This document shows, in pieces, positions 3,215 to 43,479 of a stretch of DNA of 43,898 nucleotides. The stretch lies in contig JAKBZR010000017.1 in the NCBI GenBank assembly GCA_021842405.1, forward strand, positions 1 through 43,898. The letters are read 5' to 3'. Position 1 is the first letter of the stretch, and every line of letters begins with the position of its first letter. The notes under the pieces were generated by a model, which saw only the letters and a list, made by a program, of their open reading frames with translations, was not told the DNA's origin and did not search any database. This DNA is from a bacterium (GTDB taxonomy: Bacteria > Armatimonadota > Chthonomonadetes > Chthonomonadales > JAMCWF01). Position numbers and translations under genes: made by a program.

Positions 3215-5032
3215 ATGGATAGCCGCATTATCTTGCTCGATGAGGGAACCGCCAATCAGATTGCGGCTGGCGAGGTGGTTGAACGCCCCTCGGCCGTGGT
3301 TAAGGAGCTGGTTGAAAACGCAATAGACGCCGGCGCCACCCAAATAATGGTTTGGCTCGAGCAGGGCGGAAAGCAGCTCATTCGGGTTTCCGATAACGGC
3401 TGCGGAATGACGCACGAGGAGGCCGTACTCGCCATTCAACGGCACGCTACCTCCAAGCTACGCGATGCCGGCGACCTCTTCTCCATCCGCACGCTCGGCT
3501 TCCGCGGCGAAGCGCTGCCCAGCATTGCATCGGTTTCCCATTTTGACCTGGTTACACAGCCCAATCCCTCCCTCTGGCCGGTATCGGTGGATGAGATCGG
3601 CACCCAGTTGCAGGTGGTCGGCGGTATTCTGGAACGCATCGAGCAGACCGCGGCGCGGCCAGGGACTACCGTCACCGTCACCCAACTTTTTTTCAATACG
3701 CCCGCCCGACTGAAATTTTTAAAATCGCAGGTCGCCGAGCTGGGGCGTTCACTGGATGCGGCCGGCAATCTGTCGCTCGCCTACCCCGGCATTGCATTTC
3801 GGGTGGAGCATGAGGGGCGTTGCTTGCTTAAGACGGCCGGCGATGGACAACCGCTTGGCCCTTTCGTGGAGGTGTGGGGGCGGGAAATCGCGCGCCACCT
3901 GATTCCGATCGAGCGCGAAGAGCCGAGCATACGGATCACCGGTTATGTCGCCGAGCCGTCAACAACCCGAAATGACCGCACCCACGAGCTGTTTTTCGTT
4001 AACCGCCGCCCGGTGCGAAATCGAATGCTGGCCAACGCGCTGGAACAGGCCATGCGCGCGCTCACGCCCGAAAGCCGGTTCCCGATCGCGGCCATCTTCA
4101 TCGAGATCGCGCCGGACATGGTGGATGTCAATGTGCACCCAACCAAAAACGAGGTGAAGTTCACCCGCGAGGGTGAGGTCCATCACGCCGTCAGTGAAGC
4201 GGTGAAGGGATCCTTGCTGAGGCAGGGGCTGATGCCGCGCTTTGAATCGGCCCAGCTTTCGTCTTCCACGTTTTCTCAAAACGCACCCTCCGGTTCCGAT
4301 CCTCCTCGTGCCTTTTCGTTCCCGTCGCAGGCGGTGGATGCGAGCCGCTTCGAGCCATTTCAGCAAAGACTCGAACAGCGGTTCGGCCGTCCCGAGGGTG
4401 AACCGGAATCACAAGGCCAACAACCGACTCAAGCGGAAGCCGGGCTTGAGCTTTTGCGGAACGGAACCGTGTTGGGTCAACTCAGTTTAACCTATATCGT
4501 GGTCGCCACCGAAGCCGGGCTTGCAATCGTGGACCAGCATGTCGCCCATGAGCGGGTGATTTATGAGCGGCTCTCCCGCGAGCGGTCGGCCGGCGGTCCT
4601 GCCCGCCAGAGCCTTGCGATTCCGCAGACGATCCACCTCAGCCGGAGGGAAGCGATCCTGTTGAACGAGCGATTGAGCGACTTTTTGGAGCTGGGCTGGC
4701 GTCTGGAGCCGTTCGGGCCGGAGGACTATCTGGTGCGGGCGGTGCCCGCCTATGCGGGGAAAAGAGGGGTTGAGGAACTGCTGCGTGAGATGGTGGATGA
4801 GCTGGTGAATCAGAGCATCTCACGCCGATTGCTGGTTCATCGCGAGCACGTCACCATCACCAATGCCTGCAAGATGGCGGTGAAGGCGGGAGATCGGCTG
4901 GAGAAGCAGGAGATGGAAGCCCTCATCTCTCAGTTGCTGGACACCGAGAACCGGTATTTTTGCCCCCATGGCCGCCCGATTGTGGTATTGCTGGGTCAGG
5001 AAGAGATTGACCGCAAGTTCAAGCGGGCCTAA
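3215..5032 (+). CDS. mutL: DNA mismatch repair protein MutL, endonuclease type
   Basis: A 605-aa MutL. The N-terminal GHKL ATPase motifs are present: ELVENAIDAGA, DNGCGM and TLGFRGEALPSI (within residues 1-110). The NPTKNEVKF region closes the transducer domain. A Pro/Ser/Gln-rich linker covers about 335-410. The C-terminal domain has DQHVAHERVIYE from residue 440, matching the metal-dependent endonuclease motif DQHA(X2)E(X4)E apart from A to V, and CPHGRP at 583-588, the zinc-site motif of nicking MutL proteins. It should therefore nick the strand to be repaired itself, without MutH. No mutS lies in the window. It follows the M48 gene by 35 bp. Confidence 0.96.
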   Translation: MDSRIILLDEGTANQIAAGEVVERPSAVVKELVENAIDAGATQIMVWLEQGGKQLIRVSDNGCGMTHEEAVLAIQRHATSKLRDAGDLFSIRTLGFRGEALPSIASVSHFDLVTQPNPSLWPVSVDEIGTQLQVVGGILERIEQTAARPGTTVTVTQLFFNTPARLKFLKSQVAELGRSLDAAGNLSLAYPGIAFRVEHEGRCLLKTAGDGQPLGPFVEVWGREIARHLIPIEREEPSIRITGYVAEPSTTRNDRTHELFFVNRRPVRNRMLANALEQAMRALTPESRFPIAAIFIEIAPDMVDVNVHPTKNEVKFTREGEVHHAVSEAVKGSLLRQGLMPRFESAQLSSSTFSQNAPSGSDPPRAFSFPSQAVDASRFEPFQQRLEQRFGRPEGEPESQGQQPTQAEAGLELLRNGTVLGQLSLTYIVVATEAGLAIVDQHVAHERVIYERLSRERSAGGPARQSLAIPQTIHLSRREAILLNERLSDFLELGWRLEPFGPEDYLVRAVPAYAGKRGVEELLREMVDELVNQSISRRLLVHREHVTITNACKMAVKAGDRLEKQEMEALISQLLDTENRYFCPHGRPIVVLLGQEEIDRKFKRA

Positions 5033-5175: not shown

Positions 5176-5303
5176 CAATTTAAAATACATAGAGAATGCG
5201 GTGAAACATCGCGGATTGGCTTGCCATGCGCTTTTTCAGGCTAACTCATTCCCCAATCCAAGAAGGTTGTTCGTTTCAGCGAACCGCCACGTAATCCCAG
5301 AAT

Positions 5304-5512
5304 GAGTTCAGTTTTCTGGGTAATTTAGGCAGAAGTCCCTCACTCCCTGTCTGCCGCCAGGCAGACAACTCTTTTCCCAATACTGGGAGAGTGCTGGGGA
5401 AAGAGATTGCTTCGCTTCGCTCGCAATGACACCCTCCCCCCTCGTGGGGGAGAGCTGGGGTGGGGGGACGACTAATGCAGCTAGACAACATTTCCATAAA
5501 ATTGAACTCTTT
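5304..5512. repeat. MITE-like element (copy c) with nested repeats
   Basis: Begins GAGTTCAGTTTTCTGGG and ends CCATAAAATTGAACTC, an imperfect terminal inverted repeat. The interior differs from the reference: it holds CTGCCGCCAGGCAG, an ATTGCTTCGCTTCGCTCGCAAT-type palindrome (about 5406-5429) and the C-rich/G-rich hairpin. The left half (CTGGGTAATTTAGGCAG) is shared with the copy at 18730, so these two form a subfamily. Confidence 0.75.
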
Positions 5513-5557
5513 CTAATCCCATTAAACTGAATCGTCAATTGAGAAAGGGGACGACGA

Positions 5558-6569: not shown

Positions 6570-7877
6570 CTACCCCGGCGGCTCGTTGTTCACCACCATC
6601 GCTCGATCGGCAGTCTCGTTGCGAATAGAGACCCCGTTCACGCCGTTGTTGTCGGTGATGATGGCATGCTTCACGCCGCTCTTCAGGTGGATGGATAGCT
6701 CCCCTGTCCCAAAGCTGCAGCCCCTCACCTGCAGTTTGCCGGAATCGGCCTCGATCAGGGCGCCGGTATTACCGGCTCGGCCGCTGCTGAAATAGCAATT
6801 GCTCAGCGAAAGGTAGCTCTGACTGTGGGAGACCACGTTTTGCATCGCCGGACCCCAGAAGGCGCAGTTTTCCAACCGCACCGAGCCGGTGCAGGTGGCG
6901 TTGATGACGATCTCGGTCGGATCGGGGCCGTTAAAGGCGACGAACTGGCCGTTGGTTATGAGCAGCCCCATCGGCTGAATCTCGTCCACCACGATGGCGC
7001 GCTGGGTGGCGTCCGCCCCGATGCCGCAGAGCTGACCGTTCATGGCGCCATGCGGCGTCTGGATGAAGTGGTAGCCGATATTGACCGGAAAGATAAAGGT
7101 GTTGGTGACGTACTCCCAATCAGTGCGCCCCAAAATGAAGCCCTCACAGTTTTTCCACATGTACTCGAAGACGGGATCCCATGCGCCGCCGGTCGCCTTG
7201 CTCGACCACCAGTGACAGTGCCACTGAATGTTCTCGATGCGGCCGATGTCGGTGCAGTTATCCAGCCAAATGCCGCGCCTCAGCACGCACCCGTAGACGC
7301 TGCGGATGCGGTGGCGCACGTTCGGCTCCGGCCCGATGCGAATGCCGTTGAAGCTGTTGATCAGGGTGACGTCCTCCACCGTATTATCGCCGCCCTGCAG
7401 GTGAAAGGTGTAGGCGTAGGGATGGATGTCGGTTACAACCTGCTCCGGATAGTAGACGGTGAGGCCGCGCACGTTGGAGGAATCGCCCATTTCAAAGAGC
7501 GCCGGCCCCTCCTCCTTGTCGCGGCCGCCGGTCGCCAGCACGATGGTGCCGATCAGCGGCTCGATGTAGAGCGGCGAGCGGGCGATCCCCTCCAGCACGA
7601 CTCCGGGCGGGATATGGAGACTGCCCGCGACAAGGTATCGGCCGGCCGGCAGAGATACGATGCCGCCGTTTTTGCCGGCCGAATCGAGCGCCTTTTGAAT
7701 GGCGGCGGTGTCGTCCGTTTTTCCATCGGCATGGGCGCCGAATTTACGCACATCCAGCGCAGCGGAAGATGCGGATGGGCTTGTCGCCGCGTCAGTCGAG
7801 CCGGCGAGCAGGCTGGCGCTGGCGGCCAGCGCCGCGCTCTGCAAAAATTTTCGTCTGGGATTTTCCGATTTTTTCAT
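6570..7877 (-). CDS. Tat-exported right-handed beta-helix protein (pectate lyase superfamily type)
   Basis: About 435 aa. A twin-arginine signal (NPRRKFLQSAALAASASLLAG) is near the N-terminus. After cleavage comes LDVRKFGAHADGKTDDTAAI, the hallmark opening of the Pectate_lyase_3 beta-helix family, and then coils of the type NTVEDVTLINSFNGIRIG and NCAFWGPAM. Such proteins bind or cut polysaccharides; I cannot identify catalytic residues, so the substrate is unknown. ATG 7877 is preferred since GAAGG lies 8 bases upstream; ATGs at 7880 and 7883 are equally in frame, and the longer reading begins with TTG at 7907. It is the last of the minus-strand carbohydrate genes. Confidence 0.82.
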   Translation of the reverse strand: MKKSENPRRKFLQSAALAASASLLAGSTDAATSPSASSAALDVRKFGAHADGKTDDTAAIQKALDSAGKNGGIVSLPAGRYLVAGSLHIPPGVVLEGIARSPLYIEPLIGTIVLATGGRDKEEGPALFEMGDSSNVRGLTVYYPEQVVTDIHPYAYTFHLQGGDNTVEDVTLINSFNGIRIGPEPNVRHRIRSVYGCVLRRGIWLDNCTDIGRIENIQWHCHWWSSKATGGAWDPVFEYMWKNCEGFILGRTDWEYVTNTFIFPVNIGYHFIQTPHGAMNGQLCGIGADATQRAIVVDEIQPMGLLITNGQFVAFNGPDPTEIVINATCTGSVRLENCAFWGPAMQNVVSHSQSYLSLSNCYFSSGRAGNTGALIEADSGKLQVRGCSFGTGELSIHLKSGVKHAIITDNNGVNGVSIRNETADRAMVVNNEPPG

Positions 7878-10629: not shown

Positions 10630-10669
10630 CACCTTTTCCCCAATTTAAGATAGAAAGCATTGGCTAAAG

Positions 10670-10711
10670 CTTTCAGCGGTCAGCTTTCAGCTCCGCACTG
10701 ACCGCTGAAAA
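10670..10711. repeat. Inverted repeat, 13-bp stem
   Basis: CTTTCAGCGGTCA (10670-10682) pairs exactly with TGACCGCTGAAAG (10699-10711) around a 16-nt loop that repeats AGCTTTCAGC. It lies between the GH36 stop and the start of the next minus-strand gene. No T-run, so it is more likely a dispersed repeat than a terminator. Confidence 0.7.
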
Positions 10712-10752
10712 GGCTATTACTGAGTACGCTAAATAGTTTACATAACAATTAT

Positions 10753-10838: not shown

Positions 10839-12839
10839 TCATTTCGTTGCAACGCGGTTATAACGCATCAACAGGCTGCCCGGCGCCTCGGAAATTTCGA
10901 TGGACATTCCCGTCAATTGCTTTCCACTGAGCCGTTGGTTCGGAGCTTCCTGATAGGTTGTGCTCAGACTCACCTCATACTGCGCATCCGGAATGATGGA
11001 CCTCAAGCCAATCTCCATCGTTGGAAACGGGCTGCGGTGGCGGCGGAAGAATAGCGCGAAACCTGCTTCCATATCGCTTCGGTGGAACTGGTATGCGCAC
11101 CAGTCGTGATAGGATATGGTGAGCGGCAACAGCAGGTGAAAATCGCCCAAAAAGAAAGGCTGGAGGCTCCGCCATTCCGCGATGGCTGATCGGGCATCAT
11201 CCAGTGGAAAGTCGTCATCGAGCAACGTTTTGCCTTTAGCCAGCACCTCTATATGGCTTACGATGGTGGAGCCATCGTCGGGAGGGAAGTCCCCGTGCTC
11301 AATATGAAAGCCGAAGTTGAATCCGCCGATAATCCCACTGCGTATGCTGTAGGGGGTAAAGTTCCAAACTCCGCCCCCGAACAGAGGAACCCACCTCGCC
11401 AAACCGGCATTAATGCATTGATTGCCTACATCCAGACCTCCGCCAAACGGCAGCCCCACCACATCGTGGAAATCACTCGGCCATAACGGCAGTGAGCGCG
11501 AAAGCGTTTCGAGGTCAATTCGCCGGCCTCCGCTCGCGCAGTTGTCAATCCACAATGCTGGGTGACGACGGCGAATTTCATCCCAGAAGACGTAAAGCCC
11601 ATCCACATACCGAATCTCGGTCATGCCGATTCGGTCATCTTCATCGGCCGCCCACCAGTAGGGCAGCGGATCGAAATTGAAGTCCTGACGGTAGATGTCA
11701 ACTCCATTTTCATCAATTAGTTGGGAGATAAGATCGGTGAGGTGCTGTCGCGCATCGGGCATGCCGAGATTATACAGCAGATTGGTGGCATCCTGTTCAC
11801 AGGCAAGCAGAAACTCCGGATGCTCTCGGTGTAACAGCGAATTGGGCCGAACCCGCTCGGGCTCGAACCACAGCACAAACTTCATGCCGGCTTTGTGAGC
11901 GGCGTCGCTGATCGGCTTCAAACCGTGAGGGAACCTTTCGCGGTTGATAACCCAGGAGCCGACCGCTTCCCACCACTGCTGCCCCTGTTCGCCATACCAG
12001 CAGGCGTCAATCCAGTATGCGTCAGCGCCCGCCGCCGCCACCTTCGGCAGCGCCTTCATCTCAAACCGCTCCGACGCCTCTCCGGTTAGGTAAAAGTAAG
12101 CCTGGAGGCACTGCGCTGTTGGTGGTGTGACGAGTTGATCGTTGATGCGCGGAAGATAGTGTGACAACAGTATCCGGCGTATTTGGTTGTTCCCAATCTC
12201 CGGATCGTCTCCTTCCCATAAGACTAACAGGATCCGCGGCGTGCGGATTTTCTCGCCCGGATGCAATCTCAGCCGCGTGCGCTCCATACCCGCCGTAACC
12301 CGCAAGGAGCCGCTCCCCCGCTCGAATCTCGCCTGCCACTGTCCGGACCACCCGATCGCCAGAACCAGGCCGCAATCCTTTCGCTGTAGATTCATGAACG
12401 GAAATACGCCGTTGGATGATCGGCCTCCGACCGGTGACAGCGATTGCCGGACGTGGGGCGACAGATCCACCGCTTGCGGCAGGAAATCATCCAGACGGCA
12501 GGCGCTGCCATTGGCGTAATGAAGCCTCAATCGCTCCTGATCCGGGATCGGAACTGAAACATCTAAAGCCAGGATATCCTCAATGAGGGGCGTATCGGTG
12601 ACACCGGTATTTTCGATTTCAGCCAACCACTCCACGGCGGAAAAGTCATTGAATTTCTGAGTATGTACCGTGACCTTCAGACCAGTTGCGGGATCTTTTA
12701 CACTTCGGTGAGTCAACTCTCCGCGGGCGTTGATTTCGGTAAAAATCTCTGCCGGCCACCCGGTGAGCATCTCCCCGGAATCTTTTCCACCGTAGCGGAA
12801 CGAGATTGGCGGGATTTCGGAATTTTCCACAAATTGCAT
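10839..12839 (-). CDS. Alpha-galactosidase, GH36 (melibiase) type
   Basis: A 666-aa protein with GH36/clan GH-D architecture: N-terminal beta-sandwich (about 1-240), central barrel, C-terminal beta domain. The likely nucleophile is D386 in IYRQDFNFDP. The likely acid/base is D456 in LPLWPSDF, just after DNCASGGRRIDLE, a conserved GH36 segment. DAYWIDACWYG and FVLWFEPERV mark earlier barrel strands. It would release terminal alpha-galactose from oligosaccharides or glycans. No signal peptide is visible, so it is probably cytosolic. AAGGAGG lies about 8 bases before the ATG. It starts 30 bp after the beta-helix gene stops, so the two probably form an operon. Confidence 0.9.
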   Translation of the reverse strand: MQFVENSEIPPISFRYGGKDSGEMLTGWPAEIFTEINARGELTHRSVKDPATGLKVTVHTQKFNDFSAVEWLAEIENTGVTDTPLIEDILALDVSVPIPDQERLRLHYANGSACRLDDFLPQAVDLSPHVRQSLSPVGGRSSNGVFPFMNLQRKDCGLVLAIGWSGQWQARFERGSGSLRVTAGMERTRLRLHPGEKIRTPRILLVLWEGDDPEIGNNQIRRILLSHYLPRINDQLVTPPTAQCLQAYFYLTGEASERFEMKALPKVAAAGADAYWIDACWYGEQGQQWWEAVGSWVINRERFPHGLKPISDAAHKAGMKFVLWFEPERVRPNSLLHREHPEFLLACEQDATNLLYNLGMPDARQHLTDLISQLIDENGVDIYRQDFNFDPLPYWWAADEDDRIGMTEIRYVDGLYVFWDEIRRRHPALWIDNCASGGRRIDLETLSRSLPLWPSDFHDVVGLPFGGGLDVGNQCINAGLARWVPLFGGGVWNFTPYSIRSGIIGGFNFGFHIEHGDFPPDDGSTIVSHIEVLAKGKTLLDDDFPLDDARSAIAEWRSLQPFFLGDFHLLLPLTISYHDWCAYQFHRSDMEAGFALFFRRHRSPFPTMEIGLRSIIPDAQYEVSLSTTYQEAPNQRLSGKQLTGMSIEISEAPGSLLMRYNRVATK

Positions 12840-12869
12840 GCGCCTTCCTCCTTCAGCTCTTTTCAACCA

Positions 12870-14639
12870 TCAAACGTGATTGGGTGCATAATTGAAGGGA
12901 TTGGTGATATGGTTTTGCCCAACATGAATGGAATCGCAATGATCGCTTGTAATGGACGGTGGACGCCGGTTACCCGTTGCCGGCAACAGCGGTGGGCCGG
13001 TCATCACATTGTCGCTGATGTCTCCGCTGCGGGTCCACTGGATCCAGATGTCGCCGCCGTAATTCGAGATAAAGGTGTTGTGTTTAATTACGATCCCGCT
13101 GTTGCCGATAGCCCCCTTATTCGGTGGTGAATAGTAGCTTCCGTGAACGAGCACGGCCCGGTTGTAGCCGTCCTTACCGTTATCAATAAGGGTATTGTCC
13201 TCAACGATCACATTGCGGCAGTAACCGGCTTCCCACCATTGACCCGGCGATATTTCCGGTCCAATGGAGATTCCGGCCATGCCACAGCCGCGAATGATAT
13301 TGCCGATGATCACCCCATTTGAACCCTTCACGATAATTCCGCGCGAGCGCGTGTCGCCGAGGCGGCAGTCTATTATCTTATAATTAGAGCCGCAGCGATT
13401 GGGGTTGGTTACGTATGCGCCGACGGGGACGTCCAGTTTGCGATCCAGCGTAACGATGCTGGTGCCGTTTGTGCCGGTATTGATAGCGACGACCCAGGCA
13501 TTTGCAAAGAAGCCATTGTCGCTGGATATTTGAATTGGCTCCGCAACCAAAAGTCCCGCATCACGGTTGTCCTTCACCGTAATGGTTCTGCCGGATGCAG
13601 CTACCACGTGCTGCAACTCGCCGTGAATAGCGATGCAATCATCCAGGAATACTCCTTGAAAAATACCATGTTCAATGTCTGGACCGGGGTGGGCGTTCAC
13701 AGAATGAAACCCATCCGCCTCGTTGGTGACGACCGGCGCGGCGGTTGCGCCCTCCGGCTTCGGACCTAAAACCCAACGGCATCCGAGAAGGTGATTTCCT
13801 CCCCCATGCCACTCTAAGATGGGGGCAAAGCCGTTGCGCATGAGGGTAACGTCCTTGATGGTGCAATCGCGACTGAAAAACAGGCGCACTTTCTGAGGCG
13901 CATCCATATAGCGCGCCACCAGCCAGTCGCCGACGGCGAGGTTGGGAAGCGACGTATGGAATTGAAGGCGGAAGGTATGGTCGGCCAGCGGCGTCCAGGA
14001 CGTCACCCACAAATCGCCGTCGCCGACCTTGAGTCGGCGGGTGCGGCCGTCCACCACATTGAATAGGTTGAAGTAGAGGGAACGATTTGATGTGTTGGCG
14101 GCGGTAGGCACCGGATAACCGGCATCCGGCCGCCAGTCGCAGTAAAAGCCCTTCGATGTTTTGGCCATCTTCACCACGCGGCCCTGGTAGAAGGTCACCT
14201 GGGCCTGCGAGATGGTCGGCCCCTCGATCGTCACGTTGCGGCAGTGAGACAGATCGAAGCAGTCGCCGCCATTCGGCGCCGCCATGATCAGTGTAACGTG
14301 ATAGGCCCGAATCACGACGTTCTGCCACCGGTCGAGCTCGAAGGTGGTGTGACCGGTGGCCGGTAATCGGTAGGTGCCGGGGTTGATGATGATCAGGTGC
14401 GCTCCGGCCCGGTAGGCGTCGGCAACCTGGCCGGCCAGAGCTGCCGGATTATTAGGATTGCCGACGGCTGCAATTTCGGTGGTATCTCCGAGCGCTGTTT
14501 GCGGCCAGCCGATGAGTGGGATGAAGACCGCCAAAAACAGCGCCAACGCACGCGCTTTGGGAAGCGCGATGCCCGACCGCCGTTTGAGGGCTTTCCGAAG
14601 GAATTGGTTTGCCGATCGAAATAAACGATGCGCCGTCAT
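12870..14639 (-). CDS. Exported right-handed beta-helix repeat protein
   Basis: A 589-aa secreted protein. A long basic N-terminus precedes a signal peptide (ALALFLAVFIPLIGWPQTALG). The mature part starts with a DUF-like GAHLIIINPGTYRLP segment and then beta-helix coils (NVTIEGPTISQAQ, NGVIIGNIIRGCGMAGISIG, NVIVEDNTLIDNG, GIVIKHNTFISNYGGDIWIQ). Such folds are typical of polysaccharide lyases and epimerases, but no catalytic set is evident. AAAGGAG before the ATG fixes the start. It is first in a probable operon with the GH36 gene, which suggests that the two act on one galactose-containing glycan, outside and inside the cell. Confidence 0.82.
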   Translation of the reverse strand: MTAHRLFRSANQFLRKALKRRSGIALPKARALALFLAVFIPLIGWPQTALGDTTEIAAVGNPNNPAALAGQVADAYRAGAHLIIINPGTYRLPATGHTTFELDRWQNVVIRAYHVTLIMAAPNGGDCFDLSHCRNVTIEGPTISQAQVTFYQGRVVKMAKTSKGFYCDWRPDAGYPVPTAANTSNRSLYFNLFNVVDGRTRRLKVGDGDLWVTSWTPLADHTFRLQFHTSLPNLAVGDWLVARYMDAPQKVRLFFSRDCTIKDVTLMRNGFAPILEWHGGGNHLLGCRWVLGPKPEGATAAPVVTNEADGFHSVNAHPGPDIEHGIFQGVFLDDCIAIHGELQHVVAASGRTITVKDNRDAGLLVAEPIQISSDNGFFANAWVVAINTGTNGTSIVTLDRKLDVPVGAYVTNPNRCGSNYKIIDCRLGDTRSRGIIVKGSNGVIIGNIIRGCGMAGISIGPEISPGQWWEAGYCRNVIVEDNTLIDNGKDGYNRAVLVHGSYYSPPNKGAIGNSGIVIKHNTFISNYGGDIWIQWTRSGDISDNVMTGPPLLPATGNRRPPSITSDHCDSIHVGQNHITNPFNYAPNHV

Positions 14640-15206: not shown

Positions 15207-16268
15207 GTGCTGAATCATAAGAAAAGCATCATACTCTTCTATTTGGTAATTGGGTGGCTCGGCTTGCTGATCGTACCTCCGGCAGCCGTCAACGCAAAGG
15301 CACCGGCAGGCGCGAGCACCATGAATGCTTCGGCAGAAGTGAAAAACAGGGGCGGCCTACAGCCGGGCAGTCCCTGGCCGATGTTCCACGACAATGTGCG
15401 CCACACCGGGTTGAGTCCTTATGTCGGCTCTCAGACCGGCAGTCTGAAGTGGAAGTTCAAAACGGGGAATGAGATCCAATCCTCACCGGCGATCGGTTCG
15501 GACGGCACCGTCTATGTGGGGTCGTATGACCATTACCTTTACGCCCTCAACCCGAACGGCGGCATGAAGTGGAAGTTCAAAACGGGGGATCAGATCGACT
15601 CCTCACCGGCGATCGGCGCCGACGGCACCGTCTACGTTGGGTCAATGGACGGTGACCTTTACGTCCTCAACCCGGACGGCAGCCTGAAGTGGAAGTTCAA
15701 AACGGGGGATTTGATCGACTCCTCCCCGGCGATTGGTTCGGACGGCACCGTCTACGTGGGGTCAGATCACCTTTACGCCCTCAACCCGAACGGCAGCCTG
15801 AAGTGGAAGTTCAAAACGGGGGCTGTGATCGAATCCTCACCGGCGATCGGCGCCGACGGCACCGTCTACGTGGGGTCAGATGACGGTTACCTTTACGCCC
15901 TCAACCCGGACGGCAGCCTGAAGTGGAAGTGCAAAACGGGGTATTTGATCGGCTCCTCACCGGCGATTGGTTCGGACGGCGCCGTCTACGTGGGGTCAGG
16001 GAATCATTACCTTTACGCCCTCAACCCGAACGGCAGCTTGAAGTGGAAGTTCAAAACGGGGGATCATATCTTCTCCTCACCGGCGATCGGTGCGGACGGC
16101 ACTGTCTACGTTGGGTCAAGGGACGATTACCTTTACGCCCTCAACCCGGACGGCAGCTTGAAGTGGAAGTTCAAAACGGGGGATCATATCTTCTCCTCAC
16201 CGGCGATCGGTTCGGGCGGCACCGTCTACGTTGGGTCATTGGACGATTACCTTTACGCTATCAAATAG
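15207..16268 (+). CDS. Exported PQQ-type beta-propeller repeat protein
   Basis: 353 aa with an N-terminal signal peptide (IILFYLVIGWLGLLIVPPAAVNA). From about residue 80 it consists of seven 40-residue blades of the form LKWKFKTGDxIxSSPAIGxD followed by GTVYVGSxDxYLYALNP, the WD40-like/PQQ_2 propeller type (also seen in BamB). DNA units start near 15447, 15567, 15687, 15801, 15921, 16041 and 16161. One unit lacks two codons and has a 114-bp period instead of 120. Blades alternate between IGSDG/NPNG and IGADG/NPDG, so the true repeat is a two-blade, 240-bp unit. GTG 15207 has AAGGAGG about 9 bases upstream. No enzyme active site seen; probably a binding or scaffold protein. Confidence 0.88.
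   Translation: MLNHKKSIILFYLVIGWLGLLIVPPAAVNAKAPAGASTMNASAEVKNRGGLQPGSPWPMFHDNVRHTGLSPYVGSQTGSLKWKFKTGNEIQSSPAIGSDGTVYVGSYDHYLYALNPNGGMKWKFKTGDQIDSSPAIGADGTVYVGSMDGDLYVLNPDGSLKWKFKTGDLIDSSPAIGSDGTVYVGSDHLYALNPNGSLKWKFKTGAVIESSPAIGADGTVYVGSDDGYLYALNPDGSLKWKCKTGYLIGSSPAIGSDGAVYVGSGNHYLYALNPNGSLKWKFKTGDHIFSSPAIGADGTVYVGSRDDYLYALNPDGSLKWKFKTGDHIFSSPAIGSGGTVYVGSLDDYLYAIK
15447..16260 (+). repeat. Tandem 120-bp coding repeat with 240-bp higher-order period
   Basis: Seven units within the propeller gene, near-identical at DNA level. Odd units carry NPNG/GSDG and even units NPDG/GADG. Units 6 and 7 share the same 17-residue opening (KWKFKTGDHIFSSPAIG), pointing to a very recent local copy event. Confidence 0.85.
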
Positions 16269-32378: not shown

Positions 32379-32696
32379 ATCGGCTGATTGATGGCGTACC
32401 TTGTGGCGTTCACTCGGCCGGCGGTGAGCGGCATAAACCAAGCGGGATGATAGACGTGACCGGTTATTTCGGCGAAGAAGGCCAGGTAAATAGGTAATAG
32501 TCAGGCCAACCTGCAAGTACCTGCCTGCCATCTTCGTCCACGACGAACCATTGACTGCGTCTTTATTATCTCAACGCACCGGCGCCGTACAGGCACGGAA
32601 TTCCGGTGGTAGGGGCACGGCATGCCGTGCCCCAAGGCTTTTCTCCGACAAATGGGGTGTAACCCAAGCCCCCTTCCCCTAGTAAGAAGTTGGTAA
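32379..32696. other. Intergenic region with a 22-bp perfect palindrome
   Basis: No gene recognised. GGGGCACGGCATGCCGTGCCCC-type palindrome at 32612-32633 (11-bp arms); a decayed relative is at about 6426-6445. The rest shows no clear structure. Confidence 0.65.
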
Positions 32697-32895
32697 GAGT
32701 TCAGTTCTCAGGGAGTGATTTTCGTTCGCCCCCACCCCAGCCATCCCCGCAAGCGGAGAGGGAGTGGGAGTTTAGCGGCGGTGCTTTTATCTCGCCCCCC
32801 AGTCCCTCTTAATCCCCTCCCCCGTTTACGGGGGAGGGTTAGGGTGGGGGGGCATCCAATATGGTCGTAAATGATTCCCACAGAACTGAACTCTT
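32697..32895. repeat. MITE-like element (copy h), complete
   Basis: With flanking bases the ends read GTAAGAGTTCAGTTCTCAGG and CCCACAGAACTGAACTCTTAC, a perfect 12-bp inverted terminus extending imperfectly further in. The interior matches 1650-1850. Confidence 0.85.
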
Positions 32896-32980
32896 ACTGA
32901 AATTCCGATTTCTTGACTCGGTAAACGCGGGTAGGTATACTTCAAAAATTGTGGAGACTGATAGCGCCAGGTGGAATTTC

Positions 32981-38960: not shown

Positions 38961-39632
38961 GTGAAATCCGAGCCTGATCTGCAATCGTTGACTCGGGTGA
39001 AGATTTGCGGCATCACCAATATGGAAGATGCGATGGCCGCTGTCGAGCTGGGAGCTTCCGCGCTTGGATTCATCTTTGTCCCCTCCTCTCCCCGCTACAT
39101 TGGCAAGAGCCAGGATGCGCTCCTAATTCCGTTGCGCCTACCGCCGTTCATCTCCACCGTCGCCGTCTGCGAGCAGATCCCGAGCGGCCAAGAGGAGTGG
39201 GTCCACCGCTTCACCGCAGTGCAATTTTACACCGGCCTAACCCCAGTTGAGTCGGCAGCCGGCCGACGGCTCATCCAGGCTTTTCGGGTTAAGGATGAGA
39301 GCAGCGTCCGGCAAATCCTCGATTCCAACTCAACGGCCGACGCCTACCTGCTGGACGCCTATTCACCGGATGCGCTGGGCGGCACCGGCCACACTTTAAA
39401 CTGGGCGCTGGCTCGCCGAGTGCGAGAGAGTGTAAACCGACCGATTATCCTGGCGGGCGGATTGACGCCGGAAAACGTGGCCGAGGCCGTCCGCATCGTG
39501 CGCCCTTATGCGGTGGACGTGTCGAGCGGAGTGGAACGGTCACCGGGAAAGAAGGACGCCGAGAAGATGGCCGCCTTTTTTGCGGCCGTTCGGGAGGCGG
39601 ATGACAGAGGGCGGCGGTCAATGCTGCTATAA
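38961..39632 (+). CDS. trpF: Phosphoribosylanthranilate isomerase, C-terminal tail altered
   Basis: 223 aa. VKICGITNMEDAMAAVELGA opens the barrel with the catalytic Cys. LLDAYSPDALGGTGHTLNW carries the general acid Asp and substrate loop, and IILAGGLTPENVAEA and VDVSSGVERSPGKKD the phosphate-binding loops. Isomerises phosphoribosyl-anthranilate to CdRP. Starts with GTG 38961; GTG 38997 is also possible. The last six codons (after DDRGR) differ from the downstream duplicate, which stops there; this tail is made by the inserted DNA, so the active copy was rebuilt at the insertion. Confidence 0.95.
   Translation: MKSEPDLQSLTRVKICGITNMEDAMAAVELGASALGFIFVPSSPRYIGKSQDALLIPLRLPPFISTVAVCEQIPSGQEEWVHRFTAVQFYTGLTPVESAAGRRLIQAFRVKDESSVRQILDSNSTADAYLLDAYSPDALGGTGHTLNWALARRVRESVNRPIILAGGLTPENVAEAVRIVRPYAVDVSSGVERSPGKKDAEKMAAFFAAVREADDRGRRSMLL
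39261..39614 (+). repeat. 354-bp direct repeat, copy 1 (inside trpF)
   Basis: Aligns without gaps to 41192-41545 (offset 1931) with about seven substitutions, mostly silent; two change residues (H to R, V to I). Confidence 0.95.
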
Positions 39633-39658
39633 ATCGTTCCTAGAGAACTGAACTCTTA
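39632..39658. repeat. Solo right end of a MITE-like element (copy j)
   Basis: AAATCGTTCCTAGAGAACTG then AACTCTTAC, directly after the trpF stop and inside the DNA inserted between the two trpF copies. Confidence 0.65.
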
Positions 39659-39674
39659 CGATCGGAGTACAGGG

Positions 39675-39703
39675 TTGGCATTCGACCGTTTACAGTGTAT
39701 AAT
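39675..39703 (+). promoter_or_regulatory. Sigma-70 promoter of the methyltransferase gene
   Basis: TTGGCA (39675-39680), 17-bp spacer, TATAAT (39698-39703). It overlaps the furthest possible GTG start (39695), which rules that start out. Confidence 0.75.
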
Positions 39704-39748
39704 GCTGATACTCTACGTGTACTACATGGAGCCACCACTTTTTGTGAT

Positions 39749-41116
39749 ATGAGTATGCATTATCGTAATCTGGATTTACAATCACCGCCTGTTACCACAC
39801 ACCGGCGGAAATCGGCATTTAGCAACGGTAATGCAAATAAACTCACTCCCCAAGATCGTCCCGTACATTCATGGTATCGCTTCGTCCTTTCCTATCCTCC
39901 TCATCTCGTGCGTGATTATTTAGAACGCTTCGGAGTCGGGACACGACAGACCGTCTTGGATCCGTTTTGCGGTACGGGTACTACGCTGGTAGAGTGTAAG
40001 AGACTAGGCATTCCGAGCATTGGTGTTGAAATGCACCCCATGTCACACTTCGCCTCTTCGGTGAAGATCGATTGGAGCCCCAATCCTGACGGGCTGATTG
40101 ATCATGCCCTTTCGATTGCCGATCAAACAGCTAAACGTCTCCACGCAGATGGAATCGAGGACAATTATTCCTTATTGCTCCATGAGTCGAGACCAGCCCC
40201 TTATGGTAATTACTTGCACACGCTTGATCTTGAGAAAACAAAACTTCTTCCAGCGAATTCGATCAGTCCGTTACCACTACACAAAGCGCTGGTATTGCTT
40301 GAAATCTTAACCTTCAATAAGGATGAAAGCTTCAATAGCCATGAATTACTTGCTTTTGCCAAAGCCTTGGTGTTCTCGATTAGTAATCTCAATTTTGGTC
40401 CAGAGGTTGGCGTCGGGCAGATTAAAACAGATGCCCCAGTGTTGGCACCCTGGTTGGACAACATCTACGAAATGGCCGAAGATATCCGATTGTTGCAAGA
40501 TCGAAATGGTGTATCAGCCATAACCCATCAAGCCGATGCGCGGAAGATTGCTAGCCTCCTGCCTCCCGCCAGTGTCGATGCTGTCATTACTTCCCCTCCA
40601 TACCCAAATGAGAAAGATTACACGCGGACAACGCGACTTGAGTCCGTATTACTCGGATTTGTGCAAACGCGAGCAGAATTGCAGGCACTGAAACACGGTC
40701 TGATCCGGTCCAATACTCGAAATGTCTATAAACAGGATGACGATGACCGCTGGATCGCGGAATTCCCCGAAATCCAGCGGATAGCCGATGAAATCGAGGC
40801 ACGACGAATCGAACTCGGTAAAACTAGTGGTTTTGAGCGTTTATATGCGCGTGTGGCGAAACTATACTTCGGCGGTATAGCCCGTCACTTCGCCGATCTC
40901 CGCATAGTTCTTCGGCCAGGGTCACATCTTGCCTACGTCGTCGGCGATCAAGCTTCATATTTGCGAGTGATGATTCGCACCGGGCAACTCCTGGCCTCGA
41001 TTGCTGAATCACTCGGTTATGAAGTGGTCGACATCGATCTTTTCCGGACAAGGCTTGCGACGGCGACGAAAGAACAATTGCGCGAAGAGGTCGTCATACT
41101 CCGCTGGCCAGGTTGA
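39749..41116 (+). CDS. Orphan DNA methyltransferase (N4-cytosine/N6-adenine type)
   Basis: 455 aa. SAM-binding motif I VLDPFCGTGTTLVECKRLGI lies near residue 70; catalytic motif IV ITSPPYPNEKDYTR lies near 290, after a long insert that may be the target-recognition region. SPPY favours N4-cytosine or N6-adenine methylation. Motif X-like HSWYRFVLSYPPHLVRDYLE precedes motif I. The ATG at 39749 is preferred since the promoter ends at 39703; ATG 39755 is also possible. No restriction endonuclease gene is adjacent. The gene is AT-richer than trp genes on both sides and is bracketed by the 354-bp trpF duplication, so it was acquired by transfer. Modification specificity unknown. Confidence 0.88.
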   Translation: MSMHYRNLDLQSPPVTTHRRKSAFSNGNANKLTPQDRPVHSWYRFVLSYPPHLVRDYLERFGVGTRQTVLDPFCGTGTTLVECKRLGIPSIGVEMHPMSHFASSVKIDWSPNPDGLIDHALSIADQTAKRLHADGIEDNYSLLLHESRPAPYGNYLHTLDLEKTKLLPANSISPLPLHKALVLLEILTFNKDESFNSHELLAFAKALVFSISNLNFGPEVGVGQIKTDAPVLAPWLDNIYEMAEDIRLLQDRNGVSAITHQADARKIASLLPPASVDAVITSPPYPNEKDYTRTTRLESVLLGFVQTRAELQALKHGLIRSNTRNVYKQDDDDRWIAEFPEIQRIADEIEARRIELGKTSGFERLYARVAKLYFGGIARHFADLRIVLRPGSHLAYVVGDQASYLRVMIRTGQLLASIAESLGYEVVDIDLFRTRLATATKEQLREEVVILRWPG

Positions 41117-41191
41117 TACTCAGAGCAACCCAACACTAAGAGGTGCGGGATGGCCGATGAGCTAGTCCCAGAAATAGTGTAAAGGAGAAAA

Positions 41192-41548
41192 GGCCGGCGG
41201 CTCATCCAGGCTTTTCGGGTTAAGGATGAGAGCAGCGTCCGGCAAATCCTCGATTCCAACTCAACGGCCGACGCCTACCTGCTGGACGCCTATTCACCGG
41301 ATGCGCTGGGCGGCACCGGCCGCACTTTAAACTGGGCGCTGGCTCGCCGAGTGCGAGAGAGTGTAAACCGACCGATTATCCTGGCGGGCGGATTGACGCC
41401 GGAAAACGTGGCCGAGGCCATCCGCATCGTGCGCCCTTATGCGGTGGACGTATCGAGCGGGGTGGAGCGGTCACCGGGAAAGAAAGACGCCGAGAAGATG
41501 GCCGCCTTTTTTGCGGCCGTTCGGGAGGCGGATGACAGAGGGCGGTAG
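41192..41548 (+). pseudogene. trpF: Truncated trpF duplicate (3' half)
   Basis: Reads in one frame from RRLIQAFRVKDESS to DDRGR and a TAG stop, but lacks the first 45 percent of trpF, including the catalytic Cys region. It is not expected to be active. The last codons are probably the ancestral trpF end, as this copy still joins the original downstream sequence. Confidence 0.93.
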
Positions 41549-41713
41549 CCGTTTAAGCGACCGGCTCGATGCACTGCTGCCCTTCCGTTGCGCACATTGT
41601 TAACCGCCTTAGAAACCGGTCTGAACCATAATTTACCCGATTAAAGGATGGCTGCGACTTAATCGGGAAGATGACTCGGTGGCCTCATTCTGGCAATCCC
41701 TCAATCCAGCAAA
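41549..41713. other. Intergenic region with hairpin and dispersed repeat
   Basis: CCCGATTAA (41636-41644) pairs with TTAATCGGG (41659-41667). Repeat 41694-41730 (copy of 6508-6544) reaches into the 3' end of the minus-strand gene and supplies its last codons and stop. GGTCTGAACC near 41619 is the inverse of GGTTCAGAC in that repeat, so together they may bound a small element. Confidence 0.55.
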
Positions 41714-41730
41714 TCACGGTTCAGACAATG
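41694..41730. repeat. Dispersed repeat related to 6508-6544
   Basis: About four differences over 37 bases; overlaps the stop of the gene at 41714. Confidence 0.7.
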
Positions 41731-42867
41731 GGGCGGCCACCTTTACCCGGATAATCGCCTTACGGCTCGGGTTTAAGGTGATGCGGAGGAAGCCGTCGGC
41801 TGGGTCGTTTTCGGAGCGCTGGAACGTCGGCTTGGAGATGGATCCGTTCTCGACAACCGACACACGCTCCAACAAGTATTTGGGCGCCGGCTTTAGCTCC
41901 AGCAGCAACGTGCGGAGATGTTCGTCATTTTTTACCTTGATCACATGGTTCGTTTTTGAGATACCGCTCACGACCCAGATATGGCGCAAGGGGTCAAATA
42001 CCGGTTGAATTCGGCCAGCCACATGGAACGAGGCGGCCGCCAGGGGATAAAGATCGGGATCAATCGTAACAATTGGGGAGATATCCAGACCACTGGGAAT
42101 CAACTCCAGCCAGGCGCGCTGCCGGCTGCCGACCTTCCAGGGCGACGGATTAAAACCAGCAATTTGACCCGTTTTAATTAGGTTATCCAGCGGTTTCCCG
42201 TTGGCTGGAGATCGGGTCAGAATGGTGGTTGCATCACTGCCCCCGCTTAGGGTCAATGCGATCCGGTTTACCGATGTTGGCAGCGGCAACAACGTGGGAA
42301 AACGAGAGAAGAGGTTGGCATGCCCGCTACCGAAACCCACCCGGATGGCACCCCTTTCAACCGGCAAATCCACCGATGGAATCAAGGTGGCCCAGGCGAA
42401 TACGCGATGGGGCGTGCAGGCTAGGGTTATCTTGGCAGGCAGCGGCAGTGGTTGACCGGATGGACTGGTGTCGTCGCTGCCCAGAATCACGTGATTGACC
42501 ACCACTTCACAGTAAAGTGGCCCGTTTTCCCGGATTTCCGCACGAGCGGCAATCGGCGCACAACGACTGTTGTACTCAATCCGGTTCGACCAGACCGACA
42601 GCAGAATTTCAAAGCCGCTCAGCACATTATCAAGCGGACGGCTGCCCAAGCGGTTATAAAACCCGATCACGCGGGGATGAGTGACATCCATCACCAATCG
42701 GTAGGCGGTCGCGTTTACCGTGATTTCCGTTCGCGAGGGATTGCTGAAATGAGCCTGGACATAGGGGAGATCAGTGGCGGTGCCATGATCGCTGACCGAC
42801 AACGAGAAGGCCGGTCGAGTCATAATGACCGTCGAAAGCAATAAATAGAATGTTGCACAATATCCGT

Positions 42868-42883
<16 letters not shown>
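41714..42883 (-). CDS. Exported protein of unknown function
   Basis: 389 aa with signal peptide (GYCATFYLLLSTVIMTRPAFS). Mostly beta: RTEITVNATAYRLVMDVTHP, SGFEILLSVWSNRIEYNSRC, GPLYCEVVVNHVILG, ending LRITLNPSRKAIIRVKVAAP. The pattern of an aldose-epimerase or galactose-mutarotase-like beta-sandwich is conceivable, but no catalytic His/Glu set is seen. Starts 16 bp inside the end of plsY, so its translation is coupled to plsY. The final residues and stop come from a dispersed repeat. Confidence 0.7.

Positions 42884-43479
<596 letters not shown>

Follow-up and report, generated by a model that had tools for sequence, protein, structure and literature searches.

We found a complete DNA methyltransferase gene between two copies of the 3' part of trpF in the window (the whole stretch of DNA analysed, 43,898 nucleotides, from the draft genome G000). 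In our best explanation, to which we give an even chance, illegitimate recombination by template switching or fragment capture put the methyltransferase piece into trpF. The case is a further instance of the known pattern of insertion with long target duplication, and its new part is an unusual junction detail, with half of a MITE on the left and a segment common to another place in the same genome on the right. The features of the locus are as follows.

38961–39632, + strand: upstream trpF (PRA isomerase), full length, Pfam PRAI E 1.1e-31; the last five codons (RSMLL) are insert-derived
39261–39614, + strand: repeat copy 1 (3' part of trpF), from sequence comparison
39609–39659, + strand: right half of a MITE with the terminal end AACTGAACTC TTAC; its internal G-run is fused to the trpF 3' end (junction 39614/39615)
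39660–39667, no strand: inferred would-be 8-bp MITE target duplication GATCGGAG
39675–39703, + strand: promoter-like site TTGGCA-17-TATAAT, solely an 11/12 match to the sigma-70-type consensus
39749–41116, + strand: Type II DNA methyltransferase (M subunit) of 455 aa, motif I (DPFCGTG) preceding motif IV (TSPPY)
41150–41182, + strand: short ORF MADELVPEIV-stop, located where relatives begin the endonuclease gene
41157–41199, + strand: segment common to G000:C63:18200-18242 (43 bp, 88%, E 3.3e-9)
41192–41545, + strand: repeat copy 2, truncated trpF 3' end, with the presumed original stop (41546–41548) directly after it
41549–43071, no strand: native downstream sequence, collinear with what follows the only trpF of the relative G001 (79% over 1883 columns, counting repeat copy 2)

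The two copies of the trpF 3' part align over 354 bp with no gaps and seven mismatches (about 98%; self-BLAST E 3e-174), which confirms the ungapped 354-bp repeat with about seven mismatches claimed in an earlier sequence-only reading of this DNA. All seven mismatches are transitions; five are at third codon positions, and five lie within the last 126 bp of the repeat. The longest identical run between the copies is 124 bp. The complete trpF is found downstream of trpD- and trpC-like genes, and its frame is preserved at the left junction. The earlier reading correctly took this gene as full length but gave it a new tail of six residues, while translation yields five. The upstream trpF with this short tail probably remains functional. 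Copy 2 is without the 5' half of the gene and keeps the stop codon and the sequence downstream. We found no further trpF copy in the window's own genome, and self-comparison of the window revealed no other direct repeat of 60 bp or longer around 37–43 kb.

Apart from G000 itself, a single genome of the 291 searched in the phylum belongs to the same genus, G001 (1.2 Mb, 64% complete). It carries one trpF match, which ends in GR-stop and is joined to sequence matching 41549 onward. An empty site, for which the sequence-only reading had proposed to look, is therefore present in this one incomplete relative, and the downstream copy is, as that reading held, truncated with its presumed original stop retained. 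G001 matches the window at 82% over 1025 bp from within trpC through trpF, and no methyltransferase match was found in the 64% of this genome that is represented. Over the 354 bp, the two window copies differ from G001 at 63 and 61 positions, and from each other at seven. Because the copies are almost equidistant from G001 and differ little between themselves, the duplication must postdate the separation from G001, unless it comes from a close relative. With G001 as the sole outgroup, four changes are assigned to the upstream copy and two to the downstream copy, with one undecided; this polarity leaves the models discussed below unseparated. The ancestral state is taken from this one congener, which is 64% complete. 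Both trpF copies appear to have aged a little since the duplication.

The insert (39615–41191) is 1577 bp long and has a GC content of 0.488, compared with 0.61 in trpF and 0.553 in window positions 1–38960. Its sole long ORF is the methyltransferase gene, which is complete and intact. The protein matches the profiles N6_N4_Mtase (E 5.6e-11) and PADLOC MTase_II (best E 2.6e-39); across 27 aligned proteins of this kind, conservation reaches 95% or more at 121 positions, and all 27 have DPF and SPPY. Three sigma-70-type sites as good as the promoter-like site exist in the region, against a mean of 1.6 in shuffles. The gene probably has expression from a promoter of its own, and its product probably methylates DNA without a restriction partner. 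The earlier description of the insert as 1577 bp with one complete methyltransferase gene, its own promoter and an element end fits these results, including the promoter match, except that the element end, which is real, is that of the MITE and not of the methyltransferase. A second copy of the insert or a donor locus was not found in the own genome among the 40 of 234 candidates scored. In plasmids and phages, the methyltransferase has no match of at least 60% identity at E <= 1e-5; its best plasmid match (Leptolyngbya, 51.9%) adds nothing to the case. PDB sequence searches matched the methyltransferase at the level of motifs alone and yielded no helpful match to the endonuclease. A transposon or composite transposon was rejected as the carrier, because the insert has no transposase ORF and only one MITE end, and the right edge is without an inverted partner.

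We then investigated the left edge. Searching the own genome with positions 39200–41600 gave at least 45 matches including self, with 40 of 234 candidates scored. At least 43 of these, at least 38 of them at E < 0.01, concern the left edge (about 39592–39673), and one falls on 41157–41199. The left-edge matches reveal a MITE family of pieces of 116–254 bp bounded by GAGTTCAGTT and AACTGAACTC, with GWAW/TTAC-like tips and G/C-runs inside. Exact 8-bp target duplications flank nine of 20 paired copies. The other 11 show no matching target duplication under naive pairing, which may reflect recombination between copies. The family is present in G000 and, as partial matches of 71–85%, in G001, and at E <= 1e-5 it was detected in none of 29 further genomes from the order (27 candidates scored for two of them). 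Since the half MITE belongs to a family seen only in the host genus, it probably does not mark where a newly acquired foreign unit ends. At the junction, trpF GAGGGCGG and the MITE GTGGGGGG overlap by 2 bp exactly, within G-rich sequence in which 6 of 8 aligned positions agree (read by eye). Either the methyltransferase segment was already beside a MITE in this lineage before joining trpF, or the junction received a MITE afterwards and then underwent a deletion; because of the latter course, the number of events is not fixed. Looking in the own genome for the lost left MITE half together with GATCGGAG, we obtained 11 near matches and no exact one. The three best were rejected: L130 and L132 are whole MITEs, each flanked by a matching duplication of its own, and L131 has no matching pair and a flank that differs from GATCGGAG at two bases. 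Other MITE copies are found in the window, for example at 5300–5513, 1645–1852 and 32693–32897, and on many G000 contigs. Positions 1–106 of the window are identical to 1744–1849, a MITE piece, and the contig thus ends in a repeat.

At the right edge, the match to C63 extends past 41192 to 41199, inside repeat copy 2, where GCCGGCG stands against the native GCCGACG, and the junction overlap is GCCG (4 bp). As the match lies inside copy 2, the mismatch 39266/41197 may derive from the insert side; the G001 base at this mismatch is that of copy 2. The right-edge core occurs twice in G000, in the same orientation both times, and in none of the 290 other genomes at one mismatch or fewer. We found no inverted partner of the right-edge sequence in the own genome within one mismatch, and a plasmid search with the segment gave only weak matches (E about 7). 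We take the segment 41157–41199 to read like a transposon end. The copy on C63 (L106, G000:C63:16500-20000) stands just behind a 273-aa ORF, itself preceded by an Rhs-like ORF, with an hsdS-like ORF on its other side (ORFs named by eye).

The junctions cut through a MITE on the left and through the C63-shared segment on the right, so the insert appears to be bounded by recombination scars, and their presence on both sides suggests ordinary error-prone DNA joining. In the course we propose, the simplest that needs a single event, the insert would have been captured by template switching in the repair of a trpF break, or by end-joining capture of a fragment. Synthesis or joining would have departed from trpF at GGGCGG into the G-run of a MITE beside the methyltransferase gene, then continued through that gene and re-entered trpF at the GCCG match, 354 bp behind the point of departure. 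The result would be a long trpF duplication made without a transposase. As donor we propose a Type II restriction-modification locus; its endonuclease gene would have disappeared before, during or after the capture. Whether the MITE came before or after the joining, the boundary now seen on the left is a recombination scar, and the duplication may initially have exceeded 354 bp. Speaking against this explanation, neither the donor (among the 40 of 234 candidates scored) nor the lost MITE half was found, and overlaps as short as those at the junctions might arise by chance where DNA is GC-rich. The sequence-only reading had proposed an insertion with long target duplication that needs no transposase. 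A methyltransferase-bearing insert, a duplicated trpF, an empty site and the lack of a transposase ORF agree with this, whereas a lone self-moving unit with a 354-bp duplication finds no support in edges made of half a MITE and a C63 segment.

The claim that only the methyltransferase is present also held: an endonuclease homologue was found neither at the locus nor elsewhere in the G000 genome, and the same search matched G031 and G050. The methyltransferase has matches at E <= 1e-60 in 27 of the 291 phylum genomes, G000 included; the 26 genomes other than G000, together with two of a named collection, gave 28 homologous loci. In 17 of these 28, a profile search placed an endonuclease ORF immediately downstream of the methyltransferase. 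The endonuclease of L051 matches PADLOC REase_II PDLC03404 (E 1e-110). L047 has a degraded endonuclease remnant at 7232–7488 beside the methyltransferase, L081 a possible 23-residue endonuclease tail after it, and the remaining nine loci show no trace of an endonuclease. The window's methyltransferase is 55–67% identical to near-full-length relatives with a neighbouring endonuclease; that of L093 (37% identical) may not be an orthologue. Given that an endonuclease adjoins 17 of the 28 homologues, the methyltransferase-only state is best explained by loss of the partner, and the L047 remnant and the L081 tail probably represent independent losses of this kind. The short MADELVPEIV ORF, with its ATG at 41150 after the methyltransferase stop, may be a stub of the endonuclease gene and is too short to prove this. 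A tree of 27 methyltransferases, built without the fragmentary L061 and L062 and with poor support for 13 of its 24 inner branches, has eight changes of the label for the presence or absence of the endonuclease, and at least four changes are forced by well-supported branches. The window's protein is placed without support in this tree, and the endonuclease label is no more clustered than in shuffles. The label shifts, together with the remnants, indicate that the methyltransferase comes from a Type II system whose endonuclease comes and goes.

Alternatively, in the sense of Nobusato et al. 2000, a whole restriction-modification unit might have inserted itself into trpF with a long target duplication, by some mechanism peculiar to such units, its endonuclease and edges being eroded later by a MITE insertion and deletions. 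We consider this unlikely, even though the pattern is the same (a long direct repeat and a relative with the site empty, with no transposase involved), the homologues are often complete methyltransferase-endonuclease pairs, and the endonuclease state shifts repeatedly, as the remnant in L047, the tail in L081 and the forced changes on the tree illustrate. Counting against it is a screen for direct repeats across the methyltransferase within 5 kb, which covered all 28 loci, 26 of them with both flanks, after a first pass over 13 loci within 4 kb. Not one of the 26 loci has a comparable duplication. The search for the same methyltransferase between long repeats of other host genes, suggested by the sequence-only reading, therefore came out negative; the family does not seem to move in this way as a rule, and we discarded the idea that long duplications accompany its movement. 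A case may have escaped the screen where flanks are absent or short, as in L061 and L062 (no left flank), L055 (left flank of 343 bp) and L058 (right flank of 521 bp). The longer hits of the screen are of another nature. L051 has a 91-bp direct repeat (4738–4828 and 10634–10722, 5.9 kb apart) with the restriction-modification pair between; it is a piece of the 3' part of a neighbouring 343-aa gene, with the second copy 5.9 kb upstream. In L090, dispersed G/C-rich intergenic repeats (7110–7600 and 12534–13458) surround the restriction-modification pair. L088 has a 39-bp direct-repeat pair (90%). A control with random positions gave direct repeats in 11 of 162 cases, eight of which are the L051 and L090 repeats and three diverged pairs (L083, L093); dominated by the former, it is a weak control.

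Less probable still is a larger tandem duplication around trpF that came first, with the methyltransferase landing between the copies and two later deletions, one of them ending inside the MITE, so that the 354 bp would be a remnant. Both edges can be read as deletion scars, and the abundance of MITEs, with 11 of 20 naively paired copies lacking a matching target duplication, hints at inter-copy recombination. This course needs more events, and no other direct repeat of at least 60 bp around 37–43 kb accompanies it.

We also doubt, a little more strongly, that the insert arrived by homologous import, in which a circle or linear fragment carrying a diverged trpF 3' end and the methyltransferase would have entered by a single Campbell-type crossover or by homology-facilitated illegitimate recombination. 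Seven differences, five of them at third codon positions, are what alleles of a working gene would show, and their crowding (five of seven in the last 126 bp) also favours import. On the other hand, seven changes are few, their polarity is mixed, and the MITE half points to a source within the host genus. An assembly artefact, in which the assembler merged two strain variants of one locus, is very improbable: G000 is a draft of 174 contigs and the window begins with a repeat at the contig end (1–106 equal to 1744–1849), but the junction sequences share only 2 to about 7 bp, which we infer is too short for a k-mer bridge, the genome gave no further trpF copy, and with identical runs of at most 124 bp, the copies could be told apart by reads of 150 bases, if reads of that length were used.

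Nobusato et al. in 2000 (Gene 259:99) and Furuta et al. in 2010 (NAR 38:2428) reportedly described restriction-modification genes inserted with a long target duplication. According to the available text of a review (PMC3874152), some restriction-modification systems insert with long, variable target duplications of about 100 bp, and individual component genes of some systems appear mobile. The same pattern is described in the available parts of PMC3031569 and PMC1643837, and in what these three sources offer there, the mechanism is left unexplained. The trpF locus resembles these cases in its host direct repeat of about 100 bp or more around a DNA-modification gene, in the single-copy relative G001 and in the lack of a transposase. 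It differs in that the methyltransferase is without its partner, that the edges (half MITE and shared segment) look like scars and not like unit ends, and that a comparable duplication flanks the same unit in none of the 26 testable homologous loci. Coincidence of insert ends with unit ends and recurrence of the unit with long duplications at other targets are yardsticks set in this analysis. With Type II systems having a PDLC03404 endonuclease, the locus shares a methyltransferase 55–67% identical to those of paired relatives; unlike them, its methyltransferase is solitary, and the cognate endonuclease was not found in G000. The left edge, a MITE end with inverted terminal repeats, is like those of bacterial MITEs with 8-bp target duplications. 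Unlike an intact MITE, only half of the element is present at the insert, and it would be a bystander or break point rather than the carrier. In the open-licence literature, we found nothing on topic linking target duplication, microhomology and restriction-modification, nothing on homology-facilitated illegitimate recombination with duplication and microhomology, and nothing linking MITE, restriction-modification and mobilization.

The half MITE, the short overlaps and the missing endonuclease favour ordinary illegitimate recombination over restriction-modification units that move themselves, and the junction detail suggests features to seek in other cases with long duplications. The trpF case is also one way for a solitary methyltransferase to persist without cutting off the host gene. 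A broader and rather improbable idea is that breaks at hairpin-forming MITEs feed template switching that copies neighbouring defence genes, with long duplications, into host genes. If true, insertion with long target duplication would be a by-product of repair and not a property of restriction-modification units, and selection would keep such by-products when the cargo is useful or addictive.

Among the repeats of the window, we also noted a tandem array at 15434–16264, with a period of about 120 bp and copies that are 84–87% alike.
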